NCBI RefSeq assembly: GCF_011397635.1 | Contig: NC_064767.1 | Span: 1 to 64,000 of the forward strand | DNA: 64,000 nucleotides | Source of the DNA: Epinephelus fuscoguttatus | Lineage: Eukaryota > Chordata > Actinopteri > Perciformes > Serranidae | Direction of reading: 5' to 3' | In this document: one piece after another, positions 5,133 through 58,445 of the stretch | Layout: each line of letters opens with the position of its first letter | How positions within the stretch are numbered: position 1 is the stretch's first letter | Translations under genes and position numbers: made by a program | The notes under the pieces: model-generated | Database searches by the model: none | What the model saw: the letters and a program-made list of their open reading frames with translations, nothing else | What the model was told of the DNA's origin: nothing

Positions 5133-5405
5133 ATGGCTGATGGTGCCTGGACCACAGTCCAATATGGCAGAAAGCGCCACAACAAATACAGGGGGGGCCA
5201 GCATGGCTGGGGTGCCCCTGGGAGGATGGACAGTGCACCACCCTTCCCCTCTAACAGGGGATGGGGTACAGTCCCCTATCCTAACCCTAACCCTATGGGG
5301 GATGGGTTCAGTTCCCCTTCCCTAACCCTAACCCTAACCCCTAACCCTAATGGTGCATTTTCATTGAACAAAACAGAAAAAGTGCCATCAAACGTGCCCT
5401 TCTAG
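5133..5405 (+). CDS. unrecognised 90-codon ORF, possible retroelement ORF1 start
   Basis: The frame starts MADGAWTTVQYGRKR and is rich in Gly, Arg and Pro. This faintly resembles the first residues of fish non-LTR ORF1 proteins. Its middle is made of telomere-like CCCTAA repeats translated as PNPNP and TLTLTP, and it stops soon after, so it is at best the remnant of an element start. I do not assign a function. Confidence 0.2.
   Translation: MADGAWTTVQYGRKRHNKYRGGQHGWGAPGRMDSAPPFPSNRGWGTVPYPNPNPMGDGFSSPSLTLTLTPNPNGAFSLNKTEKVPSNVPF
5276..5352. repeat. short interstitial CCCTAA tracts
   Basis: Two short clusters of intact CCCTAA hexamers (around 5279-5295 and 5320-5350) are separated by unique sequence. 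They have the full vertebrate hexamer, unlike the pentamers at the chromosome tip. Confidence 0.75.
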
Positions 5406-5553
5406 TGAACAAAACATACAATAAAGTGCCTTGAAGGGTGCCTGATAAACAAATGTAATGACCCTAACTCACCATGCGATCACTTTTTCCATGCTGGTGC
5501 CCTGCCCTGCTGGATACAGCTGGTGCTCTTTTTTGTTTTCTCGCCCCTGCAAC

Positions 5554-6036
5554 TCACAATTCCTCACTCCAGAATTGGGTTGGTGGCATGTTTTCAGTAA
5601 GCGTTTCATCCACATACTCACGTGTCATCTGACTTTGGGGCTCAGGAGCACAGACTTTCTTCTCCCCGGCTGGGGTTGCTGGCACGTTCTCAGGGGGCGT
5701 TTCATCCACATACTCACATGTCATCTGACTTTGGGGCTCAGGAGCACAGACTTCCTTCTCCCCGGCTGGGGTGGCTGGCACGTTCTCAGGGGGCGTTTCA
5801 TCCACACAATCACATGTCATCTGACTTTGGGGCTCAGGAGCACAGACTTCCTTCTCCCCGGCTGGGGTTGCTGGCACGTTCTCTGGGGGCGTTTCATCCA
5901 CACACTCAAGTGTCATCTGATTTTGGGGCTCAGGAACACAGACATCATTCTCCCCGCCAGAGGTTTCTGTCAGCAGCCCTGCTTCTTGGATATAGGTGGG
6001 AAATCCAACCTCCTTCTGGTCTCCTGATTTTGACAT
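5554..6036 (-). repeat. 96-bp (32-residue) in-frame tandem repeat at the 3' end of the recombinase gene
   Basis: About four copies of a 96-bp unit (phase markers at 5623, 5719, 5815, 5911). In one minus frame they read as VDETPPENVPATPAGEK followed by VCAPEPQSQMT. The frame overlaps the recombinase exon end by about 65 bp in a different phase, so it is either an extra C-terminal domain reached by a frameshift or a 3'-UTR repeat. The opposite strand is also open because the period is a multiple of three. Confidence 0.7.
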
Positions 6037-7604
6037 GATGGGAGCTCATCCTCTGACAAAGAGGAAACTTCAAAACTGACTTTCACTCCATGTCCCTGTG
6101 GAGAACTCTCACGTTTTTGACGCCTGCTCTTCAACTCCTCATCAGACAGTGAAGAGCTTGACTCTGGTTGATCATCATACACAGGTTCCTCATCACTTGA
6201 GCTTGTCTCCGATGTATCAGTTAAGATGAGTTCATCGTCATCACTTTTGTCATCTGGAGGGGGGTTGGCAGCAGCACTCTGCAAGGCTTTCATTCGCAAC
6301 TTTCTGGTTTCATACCCCATCACTTTGTCTGGCAGAGCGACATAAAATCGCTCTGCTGTGCTGGGGTCATGGCACATATGTTTTGCCACCTGCTTCCTCT
6401 CCTTTTCAGAGAGGTACTTGTTGGCCTGGAAACCCAAACAAAGAATCAGTCAGAAACAGTCCTTTTAGAAAATGTGTCTCAACAGTGTTAATCAACGCTC
6501 TCAATAAACTTATGACATCCACTCAACAGTCTCTAAAATGTGTGTACACTAAATTTGTTACTTCTACCTACATGCAACCATCAACATAATCTCACTTCAA
6601 ATTCTAGCCCCCATGTTGAGGATTCAAACTTCCAAATTCAAATCCAATGCCACTGATCTCCAACTTCCAAATTGTAATCTATAGACAAATTCCAACTTCC
6701 AAATTCTAATCTATGGATGAATTACAACTTCCAAATTCTAAAAACTATGGCCAGATTCCAACTTATATTAAGTTCTTACTTGAGTAGAGACGCTGCTCCG
6801 GATCATGTTGAAGCTGACAGTCCCCTGCATTCCAGCATCCACCCAAGCCAGATGGAGGAAGTTTAACGGCTTCTGAATCTGCTTGCCAAGCACTGTATGG
6901 AACACATACTTGCTGGCCTGGCCTGGCTTACAGCACTTGCCATTGGTCAGGCATTCAAGCCACGTAAACTCCTCATTGTTGAGGGAAAATGCAGCTTGGC
7001 CAAATGACCTCACGGTTTTGTGGTCATCCACCTTAGGATATTAAATGAAGAAAATTAAATTATTTCTGTGGATAGGTGGACTTTAAATGAGTGGAACAAA
7101 CCTCCAGTGACTGGTGTTTGTAGCTTATATGACTATGAAATGCTGACTTCAACAAAGACACTAATCTTAATTTAACCAATGAAAAGCTCATTACTTGGAC
7201 CCACCACACCTAAATAAATACTAACCAGAACTTGGAACTTCTTGCCATGATCCCACGTCTCAAAGTTCATCACATGTTCCTTGGTCATGTTAGTGAGTAC
7301 AATGGATCTGTGTCCAGTGAGCATGGACAGGTAGCCCATTATGTAGCCAATGAGCTTGGAATGCTCATTCTGCTGTCTTCCATTGCCGGCTAAGCTTTCT
7401 ACAAAACATGCAGAGATATACACAGAAAGATACAGTTAAGAATGCAAACTACTGAAGAAGAAAGAGTACAATGTAAATAATAACGTCGACTTACCAAACA
7501 GTTTAGGAATTTTTTTCCTGGCAGTAATCATGAATTTCTTTTCTTCGACTGCACCAAGCTGATTGTCTGTAAAAACAGTGTGACATGCATGTATTTAGAT
7601 GACA

Positions 7605-7644
<40 letters not shown>

Positions 7645-10600
7645 GTATGAGACATACAATTTGATTTCAATAAAGCCAAGAATACCGGACTGAAAACAAC
7701 TGAAAACATTTACCTGTCTTATGGCGTAGGACTTTCTGCCGGTGGACGACCATTTTTTTCTGGACATCAGCCATGATTCTCTTAATTTCATACTGAAGTG
7801 TCGCGAAGTCTTTCTTCTTGAGCTTACTAGCCTTCTCAAATGAGCTCTCGGTGTGTCTGAGGAACATGACCACATTGGTCATCATGTTTTGACTGTCGTG
7901 GGTGCATAGCCCTTCTGAAACAGGTACGCTGGCCAACTGTGGAAAAAGTTAAGGAGTTAGAAGTGGCTAAATCTGACTTCCAGTTCCACCACATTCCATG
8001 GTCCAACTTCTCAATTCTCATCTATTTCTATATCACCGTAGATTAAAATTTGGAATTCATAGAAAAAAAATATGTGTGTATTTGTAAGTATTTGGTGCCT
8101 GGTTAACTCTGAAAATTGTCTTTTTTTAGGTCAAGAACAATCTGAGATGAAAAACTACTTACGCACGTAACTTGTCTACTTGGATTAGGAACCTTAGGTC
8201 TTGGGAGACGGCCTTGGAAGGCAGGCCAGCGGCCATGTAGAGGCAAAAGCGAAGACCGTGGCTGGATGACTGCCGTGCATTTTCTATGTCCTTCTTTCCT
8301 TTCCGTGACCCCAGGCGAAACTTTCTAAAGTCTTGAAGAATCTTTTCTGCAGTAAAATTAAAACCGTTAATAACTAATTAATTAGTTGGACAACCCAAAA
8401 ACAACAAAGGTGAAAAGGGAAAGAATGAACTAACTGTAAATCTCTCTGTCTCCCCCAAATTGTAACTGGAAAGGAAAGGAAAACTTACCAAATAAATGAT
8501 CGCCCATCTTCCCCTTGTTGGCATGTTCCCATTTTTGAGCTGATAGAGGTGGTTTACAAGGTATACAGGTGGGTGTCTGGTGCTGTGCTGTCATCAAAAA
8601 ATCCACTTTTTGTTCCAGCTGCTGCAACCTGGAAAAAAACTGCTGGCAGGTGCACTTGCATGCCTTTGACAAAGGGGTGGAAGCAAGTGGCTGACTGGCA
8701 CTAGGATCAGTGGAGGAGGAGTTGTGGGACCCAGGAACAGGGGTGGAAGGAAGTGGCTGACTGGCATTAGGGTCAGTGGAGGACACATTTTGATCACTTC
8801 TCATATGACTACCGCCAGGCATGAGGGTGGAACATCTGTGGCTGGAAATGACTCCAGTGGGAGGATGAGCATTGGGGGGTGAAATGTTGTGCTTTGAAAT
8901 ATCCAGGTCCATGTCTGTGTCTTCGTCCTGGGATCCTCTTGCTCCTGCCTATGTTCCTTATCAACGGAATCCTCAGACGGTTCCAAATCAATAGGCAGAC
9001 AATCATCCTCTGTAATGAAATTTATTTGATTTAAATTGGAAATTAAAACCCTGTCGTTCCAAATTCCAAATTTCTGTTTTTGGTTGCTACACAAAAGCCA
9101 TACAAAAAACTACACAATAGAAAGCTCAAATTTAATTTGTGTATAGTTGGATAGAAAATTTAAAGGGATATGATAATGAAAGCCTTCTTTTCAGTCCCCT
9201 TGATACCAGGGAATCACAAATAATATTAACACAACTTAAGAGTACCATATTCATCGGTAATCCCCATGTCCAACGTTGATACCATGGGCTTATCGGGCTG
9301 GGACCTCCGCAGTTCACCGAGCTCTTTCACGATGGCTGCTCTCTTGGCCTGCTTCATGATAGGTTCTCGTTCCTATTAACATAAGAAAATAATCTACTAT
9401 TAGACAAACTTAAGAGGGACAAAACATTACATTTACAACAGATCTTAAATGAGTTTTTCATCAAATTAAAACAAAATGATTGTACTTACCTCTGCTGAAA
9501 TAATTGTATGTGTATCTTGTAAGTGCTTATCGAGGCGGGCAAGCTTTTTCTACCCACATAAGTCGCAGTCCAAGCTGTCTGAAGTTCTGTGGTAGGAAAT
9601 GAAAAATAAATGAGTCCAGGAAATCCAAGCTGATAACATAACAGGGTATCTATGCATAAATATGAGAAACACATTTTATTTAATCTTACCGTCCATTCCC
9701 ATATTTCACAAGAAGCTTGAACTCCTTTTTATTTGGAATGGTATGGGACACTGTAAGGTGTTGCTTTAAGTTGCTGTAGCTGGCAAAACACAATCCGCAT
9801 ACTTTTCCGCTCTGCAGATAATTAAAAATAATACACTAAATTAAGACTGCCTCCTCAGCAAACTATCACAAAGTACACTCTCTGTTATTTTCTACTTACC
9901 ATCTTGCCAAAGAGGACATTCAGAACACTGAAACCTGTGCATTTAGAGGGGTTTAAGAAGGACATGTGGTCACAATGTTATTGTCAAAAATTGGAAAACT
10001 GAGCATATTCAAACAATAAATAACCCATCCCTCTGTTACCCTCAGCTGTGTATATCTCTGTAACTCCTTGCTGCCCCTTTGGGGCTCTGGACACTCTTCT
10101 TTCTGACTGTGCTGTCAGAGCTTCTCTAGAACTCTGCTTGCTCCTTCTTCTTACAACCTCATTTCCTTTCCCATCTTCAGAAGTCTTCTCTGCTCCCACA
10201 CTTTGTGTTGATATCAGTGGACTGTCTCCAGCTTTCTTTGATCTATCTGTGACACTCTGACAAACTTCTAAGAGGGATGAAGCTCTCCTTGGCTCGTCCT
10301 TCACTGGCTTGGAAGCTGGATTTTCAGCCATGTCCATGGAGCAGAATTCAGTGCTGTTGCACTTGTTGCTTTGAATTTGTGTAATTGCTTTCTCAGTCTT
10401 CTCGTTTGTTTCTGTGTTGCAGGTTTTGTCCATTTCGACAGGGTGAGACACAGGTTCTGTGTCGGCTGTCTTAGTGGGTTTTGTTTGATGTGTGAGCGCA
10501 GTGAGAGCTGCACTTCTTGGTCTCGAAGAGGTCCTCTTGTGCACTGTCCATCTTTCCACCTCTTTAATCAACTTGTCATTGATACAGGCACTGGTCTTCT

Positions 10601-11426
10601 CTCTGTGATGACAAAGATATCTCTCCCTCAGTCGGTACTTTGGAGCCACAGGGTCCCTTGTTTCTTCACAATGAGACTGCTTCCCTCTTTGTTTAAAGCG
10701 ACCCTTTCCATTCCTCTCACAGGTGCAGCACTCACACATTTCATTTCCCTCCCCAAAAAAGTTGGCACCATAGTAACATGTGATCTCCTCGCCAGGTGAG
10801 ATGGGTCTAATGACTTCAACATAAGCAAAGAACCTGCAAGCGACATACTTGCCGTTTGGATTGCAGTCATGGTTAACAAAACTTGCAGGCCCAAGCCAGA
10901 GCTGATCGCAGCGTTTGCGTAAGGAATACATCACGCTGAAGTCATTGACTCCAGCCTGCAGCACAGCACTATCAGCGGGACTAAACTCTGCTATGCAGCC
11001 CAGCAGGACCTCAGCACGCTGTCCTGGAAACCAGTGCCTTGTTGAGGTTATCTTTGCTCCATTGGTCTCAGAAGAGTATCTGTCACTGGACTCTATCTTG
11101 ACACCACTGTCCAACAGGAAGGCCCTGAAGTAGCAATACACATGTTGCCTCAGTAGTTCCTGATGACGGCTTCCCAGAGAATTAAAATAGTCACCAGCCA
11201 GTTTGCCCACTATCATCAGCAGTGCATCGAATGTTGCGCTGAAATCATGTGTATGCTGAAAGCTCAGCAGGGTCTCTTTGAGAATACCACAACACTGTAT
11301 CTCTGGTGAAGGAGTGATGTTCATTTTATGGGTCCTGAAACCCAACAGAGGGTCCAGCACCAAACCCGTGGCCAGGTCATCAATCTCACACAGCTCCATA
11401 ACACTCATTCTGGTCCCTCCGTCCAT
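5554..11426 (-). CDS. SET (KMT5B/C-like) - C2H2 zinc finger - tyrosine recombinase gene, with two lesions
   Basis: Exons inferred from GT/AG sites and matching phases are 10040-11426, 9900-9934, 9690-9811, 9490-9586, 9246-9372, 8489-9009, 8163-8346, 7714-7928, 7495-7548, 7226-7398, 6780-7031 and 5970-6425. The N-terminal part is a histone H4 Lys20 methyltransferase domain of the KMT5B/C type. Two C2H2 fingers, a Ser/Pro-rich linker and a phage-integrase-like domain follow. All junctions agree in phase except around exon 6, whose 521 bp leave the frame one base short. An in-frame TAG (9550-9552) lies in the second finger. A 32-residue repeat reading frame overlaps the 3' end in another frame. 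The gene could be a recently decayed or mis-sequenced mobile-element gene or a domesticated one. Alternatively the SET part is a separate retrogene and the recombinase starts at a later ATG in exon 5. The domain calls are firm; the single fused transcript is inference. Confidence 0.65.
5970..8346 (-). CDS. tyrosine recombinase domain exons 7-12
   Basis: Exons: 8163-8346, 7714-7928, 7495-7548, 7226-7398, 6780-7031, 5970-6425. The predicted domain follows the integrase order: an N-terminal helical part, catalytic Arg in YLSMLTGHR, a candidate beta-hairpin Lys in WDHGKKFQVL, the second Arg in SFNMIRSS (the family HxxR His is Asn here), and the last box MCHDPSTAERFY. That box matches the classic GHxxxxTxxxY pattern, with His and nucleophile Tyr. 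Crypton elements and genes derived from them carry this kind of recombinase in animals. Every junction in this part agrees in phase, and the core has no stop codon. The end is an acidic Ser-rich tail (TDTSETSSSDEEP). Confidence 0.75.
6600..6770. repeat. TTCCAAATTC motif array in the last recombinase intron
   Basis: Four copies of AACTTCCAAATT occur within about 140 bp, part of a loose 30-40-bp unit with TCTATGG. The same motif recurs near 8047, 9058, 11705, 11740 and, inverted, several times at 13400-13510. Confidence 0.6.
8489..9372 (-). CDS. linker exons 5 and 6 (9246-9372, 8489-9009)
   Basis: Exon 5 encodes a basic helix (MKQAKRAAIVKELGELRR) and ends in DEY. Exon 6 starts acidic (DDCLPIDLEPSEDSVDKE), then must change frame near 8930-8950 to reach DLDISKHNISPPNAHPP. 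It continues with two copies of a Ser/Pro unit (STDPNASQPL, STDPSASQPL) and a likely coiled coil, RLQQLEQKVDFLM. The exon length is one base short of what the flanking phases need, which supports a single-base deletion. Confidence 0.6.
9490..9934 (-). CDS. C2H2 zinc-finger exons (9900-9934, 9690-9811, 9490-9586)
   Basis: The first small exon encodes FSVLNVLFGKM. The next encodes a clear C2H2 finger, CGLC then 12 residues then HLTVSH, ending LLVKYGNGR. The third encodes a second finger with CDLC and DKHLQDTH, but the codon after CDLCG is TAG (9550-9552). Phases (2+33; 120+2; 1+96) join without a break to the exons on both sides. The fingers probably bind DNA. The stop codon would separate the SET and first finger from the recombinase unless it is a sequencing error or is skipped. 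Confidence 0.7.
10040..11426 (-). CDS. KMT5B/C-type SET domain exon (intronless H4K20 methyltransferase)
   Basis: A continuous frame runs from ATG at 11424-11426 for about 460 residues; without splicing it stops at 9984. The family transfers methyl groups from SAM to Lys20 of histone H4 in the nucleus. Visible family marks are an N-terminal helical region with ELCEIDDLATGLVLDP (about 11-26), RYSSETNGAK (116-125), the core NHDCNPN (185-191), EEITCYYG (213-220) and a post-SET zinc cluster CECCTC (231-236). After about residue 270 the sequence is Ser/Thr/Lys-rich and unfamiliar. Vertebrate KMT5B/C split this region over several exons, so a single exon points to a processed retrocopy. A donor site (G/GTAACAG) at 10039 gives phase 1, which fits the next exon. 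Confidence 0.85.
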
Positions 11427-14069
11427 TGCCTCAAACCATCAGCATGCTGAGAGTCTTTTGGAGTCAGTGAAAAGTATCGTCCGATCGACGGTTTATAACA
11501 ACCTGTTCACTTTTGCTCACTTTTCTCTGTCTTCCCGTGAAGCCCAGCTGTTTAAATAAACATCACTTCTGGAATTTGTTGGGCTGCTATTGACTGCAAA
11601 TTCCAGACTGCATTGAGTGGCTAAGGCAAAAATGTACAAGATACAATGACAAATTAGCTTTAAAATGTATGTATTATGTAGCTAGATAGTTAACTAACTT
11701 CATGTTCCAAATTTCAATCTCTATATTAAGTAACAGATTGAAATTTGGAAATATTCCATTTACATCTATATGATAACATTTTCATGTGCTGCCCAAAATG
11801 CAATAAAACATGTTTTTTAAAAGTTCAGAAGTGCATAAAAACACTGATAAACATGATATTGTGATGTTAGACAGTGAAATAAGGCAAACACAAACAATTT
11901 ACAACACATTTTGTACAAGAAAAATCAATAAACAACAGACCTAATGCTTACCATGCAGTCAATGCTGCTGCTGATCTTCCTACTTCCTGTTGACACAGGA
12001 AGTCCAACTTTTAATCTATGTGCATGCATTATACAATATATTGAAATGTGGAAGTACAATATGGATATGTGGAATATAAAATACTAAACTTAGAATATAT
12101 GTTTTTTCTACTCCAACAATTAATCTATTTACAGCAATATGAAATGTGGAAATTATGTTTTTATGCCACAACTTGATGACTATGAAATCATTAGTATCCC
12201 CCAACCCCCACTCTCAATCAATGTTTCTAATCAATATACGTGCAGATGTTTAAGCCTGCAACAGAAAAACAAGCCATTTTCATTTTAACATGATTCCAAG
12301 AGGCTATCCAAAAAATTCAACAGTTTCTGAAGGCAGAGAACGTCTGCTTTACATCCATATATGGGTTGTTAGGGTTGTGGTCTATAATCCAAGATACGAC
12401 GCAGTCAGTCTTGGGAGGGTTACGTTAAAATGTATTCTGATACAAATAGAAACTCCCTGTTAAAAAATGTAATCAGTAACCTCATCCGAGTATCACAAAA
12501 TGAAAGCAATGTTTATGAATTGCCTGTCCAGCTATTCCTTCATTTGTTACGTGCAAAAGCATGTTTAGATTAAAAGTGGTAATTAAGCACATTTAAATTC
12601 ATTTTCCTAAGTAAGGTTATGTTATTCACATTTGACACTCTAACTGACACTCCAGACATCATTCTGGTCACCAGCATCACTTCTTGCTGTCCCGAAAATG
12701 TTTTTCACACACAACATTCAATGCAGGGAGTGAGAAGAAATTTCTCTGAGACCTTTCCAGCGGTGCTTGTCCCACATCCCTGGCTGCTTCCCTTAAAAAG
12801 ATATTGCACTTAACCTGGTGAAAAATCCCAACATTTGGCGCCCCCTAGCTCTGGACAGGAAGGGGCTGGAGCTGTGGATCGAAGACGCCCCGGATCAGCT
12901 CATCGGGCCCTTTCCGTCGATGCCTTGCTTGCGGCTCTACGACCAAGTCTGCCTGACTTGGCTTCTTTCATTTGATCAAGCAGAAAGGCCTGCAAGGCTC
13001 TCCATCCAAGAAGGCCTCGCTGCAGAAAAACTCAATCCGGGGTGGAAAAATAGACTTCCAGCTAGGGGTCCGATCTTCACTTATGTTATGGAGCTCTTTG
13101 AGAGTTTCCGGGAACAGCCGGCCCCACGTCCCTAGCCGCTTGCGTTTTCGAGTTACGGCCTCCCAAAGTTCAGGGGTCAGCAGGTCACCCCACGCAGTCT
13201 TTTTGGGGCATATTTGGCCATACAACGAGATGGAGACTTGGAACCACGTCTGGCTGAAACCTGCCATCCCGCCGATACAGGGTGTAATTTTTGGTACCCC
13301 TGACCCCAAAGGAAGTCAAAAAACACTTATTTGAAAAATCTGGTCAAAATTGGACTTTTTACATTAAAACAGATGAAAAGTTGCATTTAGGGAATCCAGC
13401 ATTAAAATTTGGAATTTGACATTTGTTAGGCGATGCTGCCCCCTATGGTCAAATTTGGAATTTGGAATTGGTTAATTTTTCAAAGTTGGAATTTGGAATT
13501 TGGAATTCCGGATTTTTGTTTAGTAGATGAGAATCTGAGTTGGAAACATGGAAAGTGGGGTCTCGCCATTCATTGTGTATGTGAAAACCCTATCCCTGAC
13601 CCTGACTCATTTCCCTAACCGTCTTCGACGTTGAGGCTCAACTCCCTTCACCCTAACCCCATCTAGGCCTGCTGCTTTGTGTTGGTTCACAGCTCTCAGA
13701 ACCCTTTTCACCAGATGTTCCTGTAGTTCAAGCAGGTAGGTGTTTGAAGGCTGAGGACCTGTGGGCCACTCTCTGGGTTTGGAGAAGCAGAGTGGGGCCT
13801 CACTGACTCAATAGGGATGTCATATACTGTAAAACCCTGTGAGGTAAATTGTGATTTGTGATATTGGGCTTTATAAATACAATTGATTAATTGATTGACC
13901 CTCAGGCACCATGTCGAGTCATTACTCAACACAAACACCAACCTTCAGTCTCACCTTTTTCTTTTTTCATTTGAAACTTTGACCTGAACATTTTGGACAA
14001 ACAGTCAACATGGGGTTATGGTTTGGCAATTCAGTTTGTCTTCAGATCACTTATCTGTCTGTTCACCTC

Positions 14070-22209: not shown

Positions 22210-22665
22210 CTATGAGGGGGGGGTGAGGGGGGGCAGTCCCTCGTCACTGGGCGTGGCCGTGTCGTCACTCGGCTCCAGGCTGTCCTTCAGACTAACCGTG
22301 CTGTCTGAGGGGGGCGGAGTCGACTCGGAGTGGGGTGGAGTTAACTCTGAGATGGGTGGGGCTAACTCTGTAGGGGGCGGGGTGTCTGGGGAGGGTTCTT
22401 GGGTCCCATTAGCCGTCGGAAGAGGGTCAGGTTCCTGGGTGGGTGTGGCTGCTGCAGGGAGGGCTGGAGTGAAGGCAGAATCCACCCTGTGGGGGGCAGA
22501 GTTAGCGAGGAGGCCGTCGCTGAGAGACAGTGAAGATTTTTCCACCAAACGCCACTGCATTATGCTGGTGTCCTTCCCCCCCGTCGAGATCAGGTGACTG
22601 TCGTTATACAGGAAGCTGACGTTGGTCACATGACTGCTGTGGGCGCTGTATTTATGGCTGGGAGC
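22210..22665 (-). CDS. eml4: eml4 last exon and stop
   Basis: Encodes APSHKYSAHSSHVTNVSF, HLISTGGKDTSIMQWRLVEK and then about 90 residues rich in Pro, Ser, Thr and Glu with repeated PPxSE/D motifs. Stop TAG at 22210-22212. Confidence 0.9.
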   Translation of the reverse strand, partial: APSHKYSAHSSHVTNVSFLYNDSHLISTGGKDTSIMQWRLVEKSSLSLSDGLLANSAPHRVDSAFTPALPAAATPTQEPDPLPTANGTQEPSPDTPPPTELAPPISELTPPHSESTPPPSDSTVSLKDSLEPSDDTATPSDEGLPPLTPPS

Positions 22666-33000: not shown

Positions 33001-33431
33001 TGAACACATCACCGTTTTACTGAGACCATGAACACGTGACTGCTTTACTGAGACCCTGAACACATCACCGCTTTAGTGAGACCATGAACACGTGACTGCT
33101 TTACTGAGACCCTGAACACATCACGAAGACCCTGAACACAGGGTCAACACCTGTCCTGTCTGAGTCGTACCAAATTATGGCATCATGATGACATCATGAT
33201 GATGTTGTGAAGTCTCACCTGGACCTCCACCAGGAAGCCATCGTTGAAGGTTCCTCTCAGGATGAAGTTACGAGACGTCCCGACTAGAAACTCCTCCCCC
33301 TTCCCCTCAGACACCGCTCTGATGGTTCCGTACTGATCCGGGACCTGTGAACACACCATCAGCTATGTGACCTGGGTGATGTGTGTGTGTGTATGTATGA
33401 CAGCGTGTATCTGTATGTGTGTATGTGTCTA

Positions 33432-33470
<39 letters not shown>

Positions 33471-35300
33471 AGTACCTCGATGTCCCTCTCCGCTCGCAGC
33501 TCATGGTCCCACAGGATGATTTTTCGGTCTTTTCCTCCTCCAGTCAGCAAAGTGCCACTCCTCATCTCACATAGACAGAACACGCTGCCCTCGTGACCTT
33601 TGACCTGCCGACAGATCTGGAACGCTGCGCCCACGCACGCACACACACACATACACACACACACACGTGAGTCTTGCCTTCTGAACTGAAATGTTACAAA
33701 AAATTTGACAGAATGAATAAAAACGACCTTCATCGTTAAATTCTGTGTTCATACATGTCATTATAAACTCTGTGTGCGTACATACGTGTCATTATAAACT
33801 CTGTGTGTACATACATGTCATTATAAACTGTGTGTACATACGTGTCATTATAAACTCTGTGTGTTCATACGTGTCATTATAAACTCTGTGTGTACATACA
33901 TGTCATTATAAACTGTGTACATACGAGTCATTATAAACTCTGTGTTCATTCAAGTCATTATAAACTCTGTGTGTACATATGTGTCATTATAAACTCTGTG
34001 TGTTTATACATGTCATTATAACCTCTGTGTGTACATACATGTCATTATAAACTGTGTACATAGGTATCATTATAAACTGTGTGTTCATACGTGTCATTAT
34101 AAACTCTGTGTGTGTTCATACATGTCATTATAAACTGTGTGTTCATAAGCGTCATTATAAATTCTGTGTGTGTTCATACGTGTCATTATAAACTCTGTGT
34201 GTTCATATGTGTCATTATAAACTCTGTGTTCATACGTGTCATTATAAACTCTGTGTGTACATACATGTCATTATAAACTGTGTACATACGTGTAATTATA
34301 AACTGTGTTCATACGTGTCATTATAAACTCTGTGTGTTCATACGTGTCATTATAAAGTCTGTGTGTTCATAAGTGTCATTATAAACTCTGTGTTCATACG
34401 AGTCATTATAAACTCTGTGTGTTCATATGCGTCATTATAAACTCTGTGTGTTCATATGCGTCATTATAAACTCTGTGTGTTCATACGTGTCATAAACTGT
34501 GTTCATACGTGTCATTATAAACTCTGTGTGTACATACGAGTCATTATAAACTCTGTGTGTACATATGTGTCATTATAAACTGTGTGTTCATACGTGTCAT
34601 TATAAACTCTGTGTGTACATACGAGTCATTATAAACTGTGTGTACATATGTGTCATTATAAACTGTGTGTTCATACGTGTCATTATAAACTCTGTGTGTA
34701 CATACGTGTCATTATAAACTGTGTGTACATATGTGTCATTATAAACTCTGTGTTCATACGTGTCATTATAAACTCTGTGTGTACATATGTGTCATTATAA
34801 ACTCCGTGTGTTCATACGTGTCATTATAAACTCTGTGTGTTCATAAGTGTCATTATAAATTGTGTGTTCATACGTATCATTATAAACTCTGTGTTCATAC
34901 ATGTCATTATAAACTCTGTGTGTTCATACGTGTCATTATAAACTCTGTGTGTGTGTTCATACGTGTCATTACAAACTCTGTGTGTGTTCATACGTGTCAT
35001 TACAAACTCTGTGTGTGTTCATACGTGTCATTATAAACTCTGTGTTCATACGTGTCATTATAAACTCTGTGTGTTCATACGTGTCATTATAAACTCAGTG
35101 TGTTCATACGTGTCATTGTAAACTCTGTGTGTGTTCATACGTGTCATTATAAACTCTGTGTACATACGTGTCATTGTAAACTCTGTGTGTGTACATACGT
35201 GTCATTAAAACTCTGTGTGTGTTCATACGTGTCATTATAAACTGTGTGACAAACTGCATAAGATGATGATAAATAATTTATAATAGGGTGTGTGTAAAGT

Positions 35301-53386: not shown

Positions 53387-56300
53387 GCCACACACATCAG
53401 GCTCAGCCTGTAACATAAGGCTGTTTAGTTTGTTTAATAAAAGGACAGGTATAGACCTGTTCTGTAGGAGAGGTAACCTTAAATAACTTCTGTTGTGATC
53501 CAATATGATGGTAGGGGAAACACTGCCGTATGATAAGAAAGGGGTCCGGTGGAAAGTGATCACAGATGCAGTCGCCATGTATATTGCAAGAGATGTGGTG
53601 CCCACATATAGGCTACTGTGGAAAAGCTGGGGTTTATTCACATGCTGAAAGTTTTCAACCCCAGGTATGTGCTACCAGGCCGCAAGTTATTATTTTTTTA
53701 ACTAGAAGGGGGAAAAAAATCGATTTAAATCGTGAATCAGATTTTTTGTGAAAAAATTTGAGATTTTTTTTTTAGGCCATATCGCCCAGCCCTAAACAAC
53801 TGTCAGCGATGCATTGAAACTGACCATAATGAACCGTCCAATCACAGCTGATCAAAGTCCCGTCAGGTGACTGTAAAGTAACCGTCCAATCACAGCTGAT
53901 CAAAGTCCCGTCAGGAGACCAGAAACAAACCGACCAATCACAGCTGCTCAAAGTCCCATCAGGTGACTGTAAAGTAACCATCCAATCACAGCTGATCAAA
54001 GTCCCGTCAGGAGACCACAAACAAACCGACCAATCACAGCTGATCAAAGTCCCATCAGGAGACCACAAACAAACCGTCCAATCACAGCTGATCAAAGTCC
54101 CATCAGGTGACTGTAAAGTAACCATCCAATCACAGCTGATCAAAGTCCCATCAGGAGACCACAAACAAACCGACCAATCACAGCTGCTCAAAGTCCCATC
54201 AGGTGACTGTAAAGTAACCATCCAATCACAGCTGATCAAAGTCCCATCAGGAGACCACAAACAAACCGACCAATCACAGCTGATCAAAGTCCCATCAGGT
54301 GACTGTAAAGTAACCATCCAATCACAGCTGATCAAAGTCTCGTCAGGAGACCACAAACAAACCGTCCAATCACAGCTGATCAAAGTCCCATCAGGTGACT
54401 GTAAAGTAACCATCCAATCACAGCTGATCAAAGTCCCATCAGGAGACCACAAACAAACCGACCAATCACAGCTGCTCAAAGTCCCATCAGGTGACTGTAA
54501 AGTAACCATCCAATCACAGCTGATCAAAGTCTCGTCAGGAGACCACAAACAAACCGTCCAATCACAGCTGATCAAAGTCCCATCAGGTGACTGTAAAGTA
54601 ACCATCCAATCACAGCTGATCAAAGTCCCGTCAGGTGACTGTAAAGTAACCGTCCAATCACAGCTGATCAAAGTCCCATCAGGTGACTGTAAAGTAACCG
54701 TCCAATCACAGCTGATCAAAGTCCCATCAGGAGACCACAAACAAACCGACCAATCACAGCTGCTCAAAGTCCCATCAGGTGACTGTAAAGTAACCATCCA
54801 ATCACAGCTGATCAAAGTCCCATCAGGAGACCACAAACAAACCGTCCAATCACAGCTGATCAAAGTCCCATCAGGTGACTGTAAAGTAACCATCCAATCA
54901 CAGCTGATCAAAGTCCCATCAGGAGACCACAAACAAACCGACCAATCACAGCTGCTCAAAGTCCCATCAGGTGACTGTAAAGTAACCATCCAATCACAGC
55001 TGATCAAAGTCCCATCAGGAGACCACAAACAAACCGACCAATCACAGCTGATCAAAGTCCCATCAGGTGACTGTAAAGTAACCATCCAATCACAGCTGAT
55101 CAAAGTCCCATCAGGAGACCACAAACAAACCGTCCAATCACAGCTGATCAAAGTCCCGTCAGGTGACTGTAAAGTAACCATCCAATCACAGCTGATCAAA
55201 GTCCCGTCAGGAGACCGCAAACTAACCGTCCAATCACAGCTGATCAAAGTCCCATCAGGTGACTGTAAAGTAACCATCCAATCACAGCTGATCAAAGTCC
55301 CATCAGGAGACCACAAACAAACCGACCAATCACAGCTGATCAAAGTCCCATCAGGTGACTGTAAAGTAACCACAATCACAGCTGATCAAAGTCCCATCAG
55401 GAGACCACAAACAAACCGACCAATCACAGCTGCTCAAAGTCCCATCAGGTGACTGTAAAGTAACCATCCAATCACAGCTGATCAAAGTCCCATCAGGAGA
55501 CCACAAACAAACCGACCAATCACAGCTGATCAAAGTCCCATCAGGTGACTGTAAAGTAACCATCCAATCACAGCTGATCAAAGTCCCGTCAGGTGACTGT
55601 AAAGTAACCGTCCAATCACAGCTGATCAAAGTCCCATCAGGAGACCACAAACAAACCGACCAATCACAGCTGATCAAAGTCCCATCAGGTGACTGTAAAG
55701 TAACCATCCAATCACAGCTGATCAAAGTCCCATCAGGAGACCACAAACAAACCGACCAATCACAGCTGATCAAAGTCCCATCAGGAGACCACAAACAAAC
55801 CGTCCAATCACAGCTGATCAAAGTCCCATCAGGTGACTGTAAAGTAACCGTCCAATCACAGCTGATCAAAGTCCCATCAGGAGACCACAAACAAACCGTC
55901 CAATCACAGCTGATCAAAGTCCCATCAGGTGACTGTAAAGTAACCGTCCAATCACAGCTGATCAAAGTCTCGTCAGGAGACCACAAACAAACCGTCCAAT
56001 CACAGCTGATCAAAGTCCCATCAGGTGACTGTAAAGTAACCATCCAATCACAGCTGATCAAAGTCCCATCAGGTGACTGTAAAGTAACCGTCCAATCACA
56101 GCTGATCAAAGTCCCATCAGGTGACTGTAAAGTAACCGTCCAATCACAGCTGATCAAAGTCCCATCAGGTGACTGTAAAGTAACCGTCCAATCACAGCTG
56201 ATCAAAGTCTCGTCAGGAGACCACAAACAAACCGTCCAATCACAGCTGATCAAAGTCCCGTCAGGTGACTGTAAAGTAACCATCCAATCACAGCTGCTCA

Positions 56301-58445
56301 AAGTCCCATCAGGTGACTGTAAAGTAACCATCCAATCACAGCTGCTCAAAGTCCCATCAGGTGACTGTAAAGTAACCGTCCAATCACAGCTGATCAAAGT
56401 CACTTGAGGTGACTCTTTAGTAACCGTCATATCACAGCTGATCAAAGTCCCATCAGGTGACTGTAAAGTAACCGTCCAATCACAGCTGATCAAAGTCCGT
56501 CAGGTGACTGTAAAGTCAAACCGTCCAATCACAGCTGATCAAAGTCCCGTCAGGTGACTGTAAAGTAACCATCCAATCACAGCTGCTCAAAGTCCCATCA
56601 GGTGACTGTAAAGTAACCATCCAATCACAGCTGCTCAAAGTCCCATCAGGTGACCACAAACAAACCGTCCAATCACAGCTGATCAAAGTCCCGTCAGGTG
56701 ACTGTAAAGTAACCATCCAATCACAGCTGCTCAAAGTCCCGTCAGGTGACTGTAAAGTAACCATCCAATCACAGCTGCTCAAAGTCCCATCAGGTGACTG
56801 TAAAGTAACCATCCAATCACAGCTGCTCAAAGTCCCATCAGGTGACTGTAAAGTAACCGTCCAATCACAGCTGATCAAAGTCCCATCAGGTGACTGTAAA
56901 GTAACCATCCAATCACAGCTGCTCAAAGTCCCATCAGGTGACTGTAAAGTAACCGTCCAATCACAGCTGATCAAAGTCCCATCAGGTGACTGTAAAGTAA
57001 CCGTCCAATCACAGCTGATCAAAGTCCCATCAGGTGACTGTAAAGTAACCGTCCAATCACAGCTGCTCAAAGTCCCATCAGGTGACTGTAAAGTAACCGT
57101 CCAATCACAGCTGATCAAAGTCCCGTCAGGTGACTGTAAAGTAACCATCCAATCACAGCTGATCAAAGTCCCGTCAGGTGACTGTAAAGTAACCATCCAA
57201 TCACAGCTGCTCAAAGTCCCGTCAGGTGACTGTAAAGTAACCATCCAATCACAGCTGCTCAAAGTCCCATCAGGTGACTGTAAAGTAACCATCCAATCAC
57301 AGCTGATCAAAGTCCCATCAGGTGACTGTAAAGTAACCATCCAATCACAGCTGATCAAAGTCCCATCAGGTGACTGTAAAGTAACCATCCAATCACAGCT
57401 GCTCAAAGTCCCATCAGGTGACTGTAAAGTAACCGTCCAATCACAGCTGATCAAAGTCCCATCAGGTGACTGTAAAGTAACCGTCCAATCACAGCTGATC
57501 AAAGTCTCGTCAGGTGACTGTAAAGTAACCGTCCAATCACAGCTGCTCAAAGTCCCATCAGGTGACTGTAAAGTAACCATCCAATCACAGCTGATCAAAG
57601 TCCCATCAGGTGACCACAAACAAACCGTCCAATCACAGCTGATCAAAGTCCCGTCAGGTGACTGTAAAGTAACCGTCCAATCACAGCTGATCAAAGTCTC
57701 GTCAGGAGACCACAAACAAACCGTCCAATCACAGCTGCTCAAAGTCCCATCAGGTGACTGTAAAGTAACCATCCAATCACAGCTGCTCAAAGTCCCATCA
57801 GGTGACCACAAACAAACCGTCCAATCACAGCTGATCAAAGTCCCGTCAGGTGACTGTAAAGTAACCGTCCAATCACAGCTGATCAAAGTCTCGTCAGGAG
57901 ACCACAAACAAACCGTCCAATCACAGCTGCTCAAAGTCCCATCAGGTGACTGTAAAGTAACCGTCCAATCACAGCTGATCAAAGTCTCGTCAGGAGACCA
58001 CAAACAAACCGTCCAATCACAGCTGATCAAAGTCCCATCAGGTGACTGTAAAGTAACCGTCCAATCACAGCTGCTCAAAGTCCCATCAGGAGACCACAAA
58101 CAAACCGTCCAATCACAGCTGATCAAAGTCCCGTCAGGTGACTGTAAAGTAACCATCCAATCACAGCTGATCAAAGTCCCGTCAGGTGACTGTAAAGTAA
58201 CCGTCCAATCACAGCTGCTCAAAGTCCCGTCAGGTGACAACAAAAACAAACCAACCAATCACAGCTGAGTTTGATTTTGTGCCATCAGTCACTCTAATAA
58301 GAACATACTGACAGTAACTGATCAATGCGTTTTTAGTTACTGATTGACAAAATATCTGATCTGATTTATTGATCCACAGAGTCTGATTTACTGTCATCAA
58401 ATCTATGACATCACAATAACCTGATCAAACACACACATATATGTG

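Follow-up and report, generated by a model that had tools for sequence, protein, structure and literature searches.

What is a histone methyltransferase domain doing beside a tyrosine recombinase in a fish genome, and do the two genes form one mobile unit? The question is raised by the 64,000 bases at the start of contig C16 (NC_064767.1) of Epinephelus fuscoguttatus, hereafter called the window, where an open reading frame (ORF) with a SET domain lies next to a multi-exon recombinase-like gene. Among the titles listed in a literature search, none describes the combination of a KMT5-type SET domain with a tyrosine recombinase. The searched genome comprised 1.047 Gb in 26 contigs, and all counts of protein-search matches in it are lower bounds. 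The analysis points, with good though incomplete confidence, to an old and selected kmt5c retrogene that lies beside a decayed recombinase gene and was spread by subtelomeric duplication. The SET gene is described by the following features:

9984–11426, minus strand: intact ORF of the retrocopy, 480 amino acids (aa), a single open frame whose final 14 residues and stop codon come from flanking sequence.
10680–11417, minus strand: KMT5B/C-type SET domain, residues 4–249, with NHDC and CECCTC motifs (PF00856, E 5e-8; 3rq4, E 7.9e-83).
10029–11614, minus strand: processed retrocopy of kmt5c mRNA, with the junction of the 5′ untranslated region (UTR) and 8 coding pieces fused, 68–93% identical at the DNA level to C19:12677900–12688000.

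The intronless KMT5B/C-type SET domain expected from the original prediction was borne out by the open 480-aa frame, by the presence of both the NHDCNPN and CECCTC motifs and by the alignment of residues 4–249 with the solved structure of SUV420H2 (3rq4, E 7.9e-83). The structure of KMT5B was matched too, across much of the same residues, and a Pfam scan identified SET (PF00856, E 5e-8) in the ORF. With the whole domain aligned to solved KMT5C and KMT5B, the ORF is, as judged from its sequence, of the KMT5C (SUV4-20H2) type. It shares with KMT5C the full SET domain and its motifs, but differs from it in being intronless, 3′-truncated and subtelomeric, and the PNC triplet of the parent protein is changed to PNG in the window copy and to PNS in the copy on C13. 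The SET protein had no match in IMG/VR.

Window positions 10041–11426, used as a DNA query against the genome, gave 10 matches, consisting of three near-identical copies (C16, C9, and C13) and seven pieces on C19 with 71–93% identity. When the first 250 residues of the SET protein were used as query, at least 12 matches were obtained at five places, namely C16, C9, C13, C19 (five matches) and C2 (four matches); the more distant gene on C2 is by inference kmt5b. The C19 gene, kmt5c, consists of eight coding pieces and a 5′UTR exon, and GT/AG borders were found at all seven introns between the coding pieces. The window copy lacks these seven introns as well as the 5′UTR intron. Because the exons are joined intron-free, including the junction of the 5′UTR exon with the first coding exon, the SET gene is, by its exon structure, a processed retrocopy, and its parent is the kmt5c gene that the genome itself carries on C19. 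This parentage rules out that the SET gene arose together with the recombinase. Homology breaks off at about 10029, within a coding exon of the parent, whose frame continues (TAEGNRGVREMFFK...). No poly(A) was visible at this point, and comparison of 20 kb more of the C19 parent region revealed no added homology beyond a simple repeat.

The retrocopy and its kmt5c parent were compared by the NG86 method over 463 aligned codons, which gave a synonymous divergence (dS) of 0.56 and a ratio of nonsynonymous to synonymous divergence (dN/dS) of 0.34. In residues 1–277 (275 codons), dS was 0.51 and dN/dS was 0.19 (bootstrap 0.13–0.29). A pairwise dN/dS is an average over the retrocopy branch and the parent branch, and we infer that a neutral retrocopy branch would shift it toward 0.5 or more. 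At the zebrafish rate of 4.13e-9 per silent site per year, given in PMC3091775, the dS of 0.56 would translate into some 70 million years of divergence, the application of this rate to the present species being approximate. In a neutral simulation, in which the parent sequence was mutated in 2000 runs per substitution level, stop-free runs numbered 106/2000 at 0.05 substitutions per site, 6/2000 at 0.10 and 0/2000 at both 0.15 and 0.28, and the result at 0.28 rules out that the SET ORF stayed intact by chance. Compared with the window copy, the C9 and C13 copies carry 5 and 4 substitutions, respectively, in the 1443 bases of the SET ORF, 24 and 14 in 2170 bases upstream, and 28/4381 and 11/1543 in the recombinase region (the 1543 bases were counted over 8392–9934). 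Pooled, substitutions are rarer in the SET ORF than in the flanks (9/2886 versus 77/10264, Fisher p 0.008), in a test that omits a class of 258 positions with 4 differences in C9 and none listed in C13. The catalytic SET part is open to residue 249 in all three copies. As read from the codon comparison, the SET part of the retrocopy is apparently under purifying selection.

The surroundings of the three copies bear on how they were spread. Two features extend over the common segment (no strand assigned):

5345–13596: segment common to contig ends, present in full on C9, where it also has insertions and one duplicated stretch, and on C13 only as 8392–13596.
12743–13596: right-end repeat unit, seven in a row on C3 (about 893-bp spacing), two on C9, single in the window and on C13.

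SET and recombinase stand together in each of the three copies found by the DNA search (C16, C13, and C9), which are 98–99% alike. The nearest edge of the segment lies about 5 kb from the start of C16, 1 kb from the end of C9 and 70 kb from the end of C13. Haplotype duplicates were thought unlikely as the source of the copies, which stand on three contigs with different flanks. The left edges differ: the window segment begins at about 5345 beside CCCTAA repeats, C13 begins at 8392 beside CCCTAACCCT, and C9 runs further left. Telomere-like hexamers (TTAGGG/CCCTAA), counted per 200 bp beside the left and right edge, numbered 5 and 2 in the window, 2 and 0 on C13, and 1 and 0 on C9; the background, taken from 200-bp bins of window positions 14000–63800, had a mean of 0.06, and 15 of 249 bins contained any. 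The original prediction had proposed that aligning paralogous loci would reveal element ends. One constant edge, 13596, did emerge, but the left edges vary, and neither terminal inverted repeats nor long direct repeats linking the segment ends were found, only telomere-like and chance short matches. The edge pattern fits duplication among chromosome ends, while the constant right edge leaves room for an element end. Positions near contig ends, with telomere-like sequence at several junctions, are explained by subtelomeric duplication no less well than by transposition through the recombinase.

Two further observations concern these flanks. The units on C3 form a tandem array at C3:48717926–48724076, with seven matches to the 12743–13596 unit at about 893-bp spacing and a run of N at its left. 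To the left of the C9 segment lies a tandem satellite-like sequence with a few hundred bases per unit, as seen by eye.

The gene downstream of SET has the following parts in the window:

5970–9934, minus strand: recombinase-like multi-exon gene, exons 2–12, disabled here in exons 4, 6, 8 and 12.
9490–9811, minus strand: two zinc-finger-like exons; 9811–9690 matches zf-C2H2 (E 0.0025) and 9586–9490 holds a finger recognized by eye and an in-frame TAG.
6315–7399, minus strand: catalytic exons 10–12, with TGHR, HKT, NMIR, MCHD and RFY.

GT donors were found at exons 2–11 and AG acceptors at exons 2–12. With every exon represented by a copy that keeps it open, the splice phases computed from the lengths of exons 3–12 were mutually consistent; to this extent the predicted phase agreement of eleven of twelve exons stood, but the frame of the window itself is broken in four of them. 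Exon 4 is interrupted by an in-frame TAG, exons 6 and 8 each carry a 1-bp frameshift, and exon 12 lacks an approximately 274-bp stretch present in C9. The C9 copy is free of the window's lesions in exons 4, 6 and 8 and its exon 12 is open to its end; lesions of its own are one inserted base in exon 3 and the loss of 4 bp from exon 11. The C13 copy has lost 1 bp of exon 4 and stops at 8392, exons 7–12 being missing. The gene is damaged in all three copies, and since the lesions differ between them, a large part of the decay postdates their separation.

The protein carries R, K, R, H and Y boxes, as had been predicted, and so does a second lineage, B (C15, C21), which is 32% identical to the window lineage. 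The spacing in the window lineage and in lineage B is 32/31 for R–K, 105/105 for R–R, 25/24 for R–H and 9/9 for H–Y, an order and spacing typical of tyrosine recombinases. The usual histidine of HxxR is replaced by Asn in both lineages (NMIR and NMLR). A decayed lineage E has TGHG for TGHR. The two predicted C2H2 fingers fared unequally: that of exon 3 gave a weak Pfam match (zf-C2H2, E 0.0025, under the curated cut-off), while that of exon 4 was recognized only by eye. In profile searches, lineage B matched Phage_integrase (PF00589) weakly (E 0.14); the window protein had no Phage_integrase match in Pfam, only DUF1248 at E 0.02–0.05. Searches of the recombinase protein against PDB, including a profile search, and against IMG/VR gave no supporting match, nor did PHROGs, where one family of unknown function appeared at E 0.063. 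Profile comparison with four of ten other recombinase-type ORFs gave no support either, in a weak test with shallow alignments. With typical motif order and spacing and weak profile evidence, the downstream gene is best described as recombinase-like.

Protein searches with the window and lineage B queries detected further lineages on C5, C15, C21 and C24, with at least 14 and at least 36 matches, respectively, the window's own included. On C15 (21213172 and 21226170) and on C21 (1649766 and 1662603), two recombinase lineages lie about 13 kb apart, which suggests a larger repeated unit holding both lineages on these contigs. At C5:3544487–3544720 and in its flanks lies a decayed gene related to the window recombinase, some of whose adjacent exons are separated by little or no intron; this relative is perhaps itself a processed copy.

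These data would be accommodated by the following course of events. A kmt5c mRNA would have been reverse-transcribed and inserted intron-free beside a multi-exon recombinase-like gene, as a copy that ends inside the parent's coding sequence; placement by retroposition seems preferable to a later rearrangement. Purifying selection would have kept the SET part of the retrogene open over a long period, and the ORF that ends at 9984 probably yields a truncated KMT5C-like H4K20 methyltransferase as a separate protein. The whole segment would then have been copied to several chromosome ends, probably via exchange at telomere-like repeats, after which the copies would have decayed, partly independently, with the recombinase-like gene damaged and the catalytic SET part left open in all three.

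Several observations weigh against a selected retrogene spread by subtelomeric duplication. In the rest of the retrocopy (188 codons), dN/dS rises to 0.54, with a wide bootstrap interval of 0.37–0.79, and every pairwise value averages in the branch of the parent. The pooled substitution test uses copies of common ancestry, which are not independent, and for each copy alone the contrast between SET and flanks has p values of 0.08 and 0.10. Two of the three SET copies are frameshifted directly after the domain: a 1-bp loss at 10683, common to C9 and C13, ends the frame soon past it (269-aa open frames), and C13 has an additional 1-bp insertion. As to the duplication, the place on C3, where the search matched the repeat unit only, is 258 kb from the contig end, and no telomere-like hexamer was found within 200 bp of the right edge of C13 or C9. 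Moreover, the right edge falls on the identical base, 13596, in the window, C13, C9 and C3, that is, in three different flanking contexts, since C3 and C9 begin alike past it, as the end of an element would.

The best surviving alternative, which we nevertheless regard as unlikely, is that the region 5345–13596 is moved, now or recently, by its own tyrosine recombinase, with the SET gene as a helpful cargo, for example for marking chromatin at the copies. The adjoining recombinase-like gene is a part of the original prediction that stood, and it recurs with SET in three of three copies; this recurrence, the exact common right edge with unrelated flanks, as well as the purifying selection on SET, would suit such an element. 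Where the other copies align with the window they lack its recombinase lesions, so more of the recombinase exons were open in the ancestor. The idea of a transposon with a captured H4K20 methyltransferase is opposed by the broken recombinase of the window, the position of all three copies near contig ends, the differing left edges (5345 in the window, 8392 on C13, further left on C9), the small number of copies and the lack of visible terminal repeats. Furthermore, none of the at least 12 KMT5-type SET matches lies on C5, C15, C21 or C24, the contigs of the other recombinase lineages, the wider flanks of these relatives being mostly unread. A mobile methyltransferase element is therefore possible and not favoured. 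The stronger version, in which a recombinase element has retained a captured H4K20 methyltransferase under purifying selection over tens of millions of years, spreads both genes as a unit among chromosome ends and places a repressive mark at subtelomeres or at copies of itself, appears slightly less probable still.

According to another explanation, which we consider improbable, a new splice site joined the SET retrocopy to the zinc-finger and recombinase exons downstream of it, so that a single SET–zinc finger–recombinase protein is made. The junction would use this site:

10034–10042, minus strand: proposed splice donor AGG/GTAACA, within the parent codons E-G-N.

The predicted fit of the SET donor to the downstream exons was confirmed as far as phase is concerned (10040 to 9934), and exon 2 (35 nt) is open in the required frame in three of three copies, but a phase match at a single junction arises at random with a chance of about 1 in 3. 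The donor agrees with the consensus at 6 of 9 places, which is low yet not the lowest, because the 11 donors of the exon chain range from 5 to 8. Recruitment of this kind is common in zebrafish, where 95 chimerical retrogenes were reported in the part of PMC3091775 consulted. On the other side, the donor falls on retrocopied coding sequence, the codons Glu-Gly-Asn, which the kmt5c parent translates through. Exon 2 terminates in ATG just ahead of the first zinc finger, therefore a separate start is also possible there; the nearest other recombinase lineage, on C5, has no SET within the upstream stretch read; and the frame of the window is broken downstream in exons 4, 6, 8 and 12, for which reason the agreement of eleven of twelve exons in phase was rejected as proof of a working fusion. 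Apart from phase, nothing in the sequence favours a spliced SET–recombinase fusion, which is possible and unproven.

That the two genes are passive neighbours, the SET ORF being merely a retropseudogene not yet decayed, would agree with the frameshifts past residue 249 in two of three copies and the C-terminal dN/dS of 0.54, but is very improbable in view of the SET dN/dS of 0.19 at a dS of 0.51 and of a stop-free window copy against none in 2000 neutral simulations at 0.28 substitutions per site.

Elsewhere in the window, a gene of EML type (echinoderm microtubule-associated protein-like) is represented by pieces on the minus strand at 22213–22665 and 33362–33748 (Beta-prop_EML_2, E 1.2e-15; Beta-prop_EML, E 5.7e-10; both under the curated whole-domain cut-off). 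Positions 53775–58265 are occupied by an extended repeat region, both strands of which hold large open frames in repeated units (SPDGTLISCDW).

Among known systems, SETMAR is a confirmed fusion of SET with a mariner DDE transposase; the window resembles it in that SET adjoins a mobile-element enzyme, whereas the fusion here is unproven and the enzyme is of another kind. Crypton tyrosine-recombinase transposons, as described in the part of PMC3212892 consulted, likewise contain a gene with recombinase spacing of the R..R-H-Y type. They differ from the present gene family, in which Pfam scans found no DUF3504 and only a weak Phage_integrase match in lineage B, the HxxR histidine is Asn and mobility is only putative; in the text of the Crypton paper, 'SET domain' and 'methyltransferase' have 0 occurrences. 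DNA methyltransferases have been taken into retrotransposons of dinoflagellates and charophytes (PMC5890265, consulted in part), which also join a host-type chromatin enzyme to a mobile gene, but these are DNA, not histone, methyltransferases. The teleost retrogenes and chimerical retrogenes of PMC3091775, as far as that text was consulted, are similar in being processed copies of host mRNAs, apparently under negative selection, beside recruitable exons, while in the window the recruitment of recombinase exons is only a candidate and the copy sits in a multi-copy subtelomeric segment.

The interesting core of the locus is thus an old, truncated, apparently selected kmt5c retrogene that is now part of a duplicated subtelomeric segment. 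Telomeric chromatin is a site of action of SUV4-20 enzymes, so the position and the function of the retrogene could be linked. If the recombinase moves the SET–recombinase pair, the locus would represent a rare mobile element carrying a histone methyltransferase. An old, selected kmt5c retrogene within a segment that is duplicated from one chromosome end to another would provide H4K20 methylation from a second source, linked to subtelomeres.

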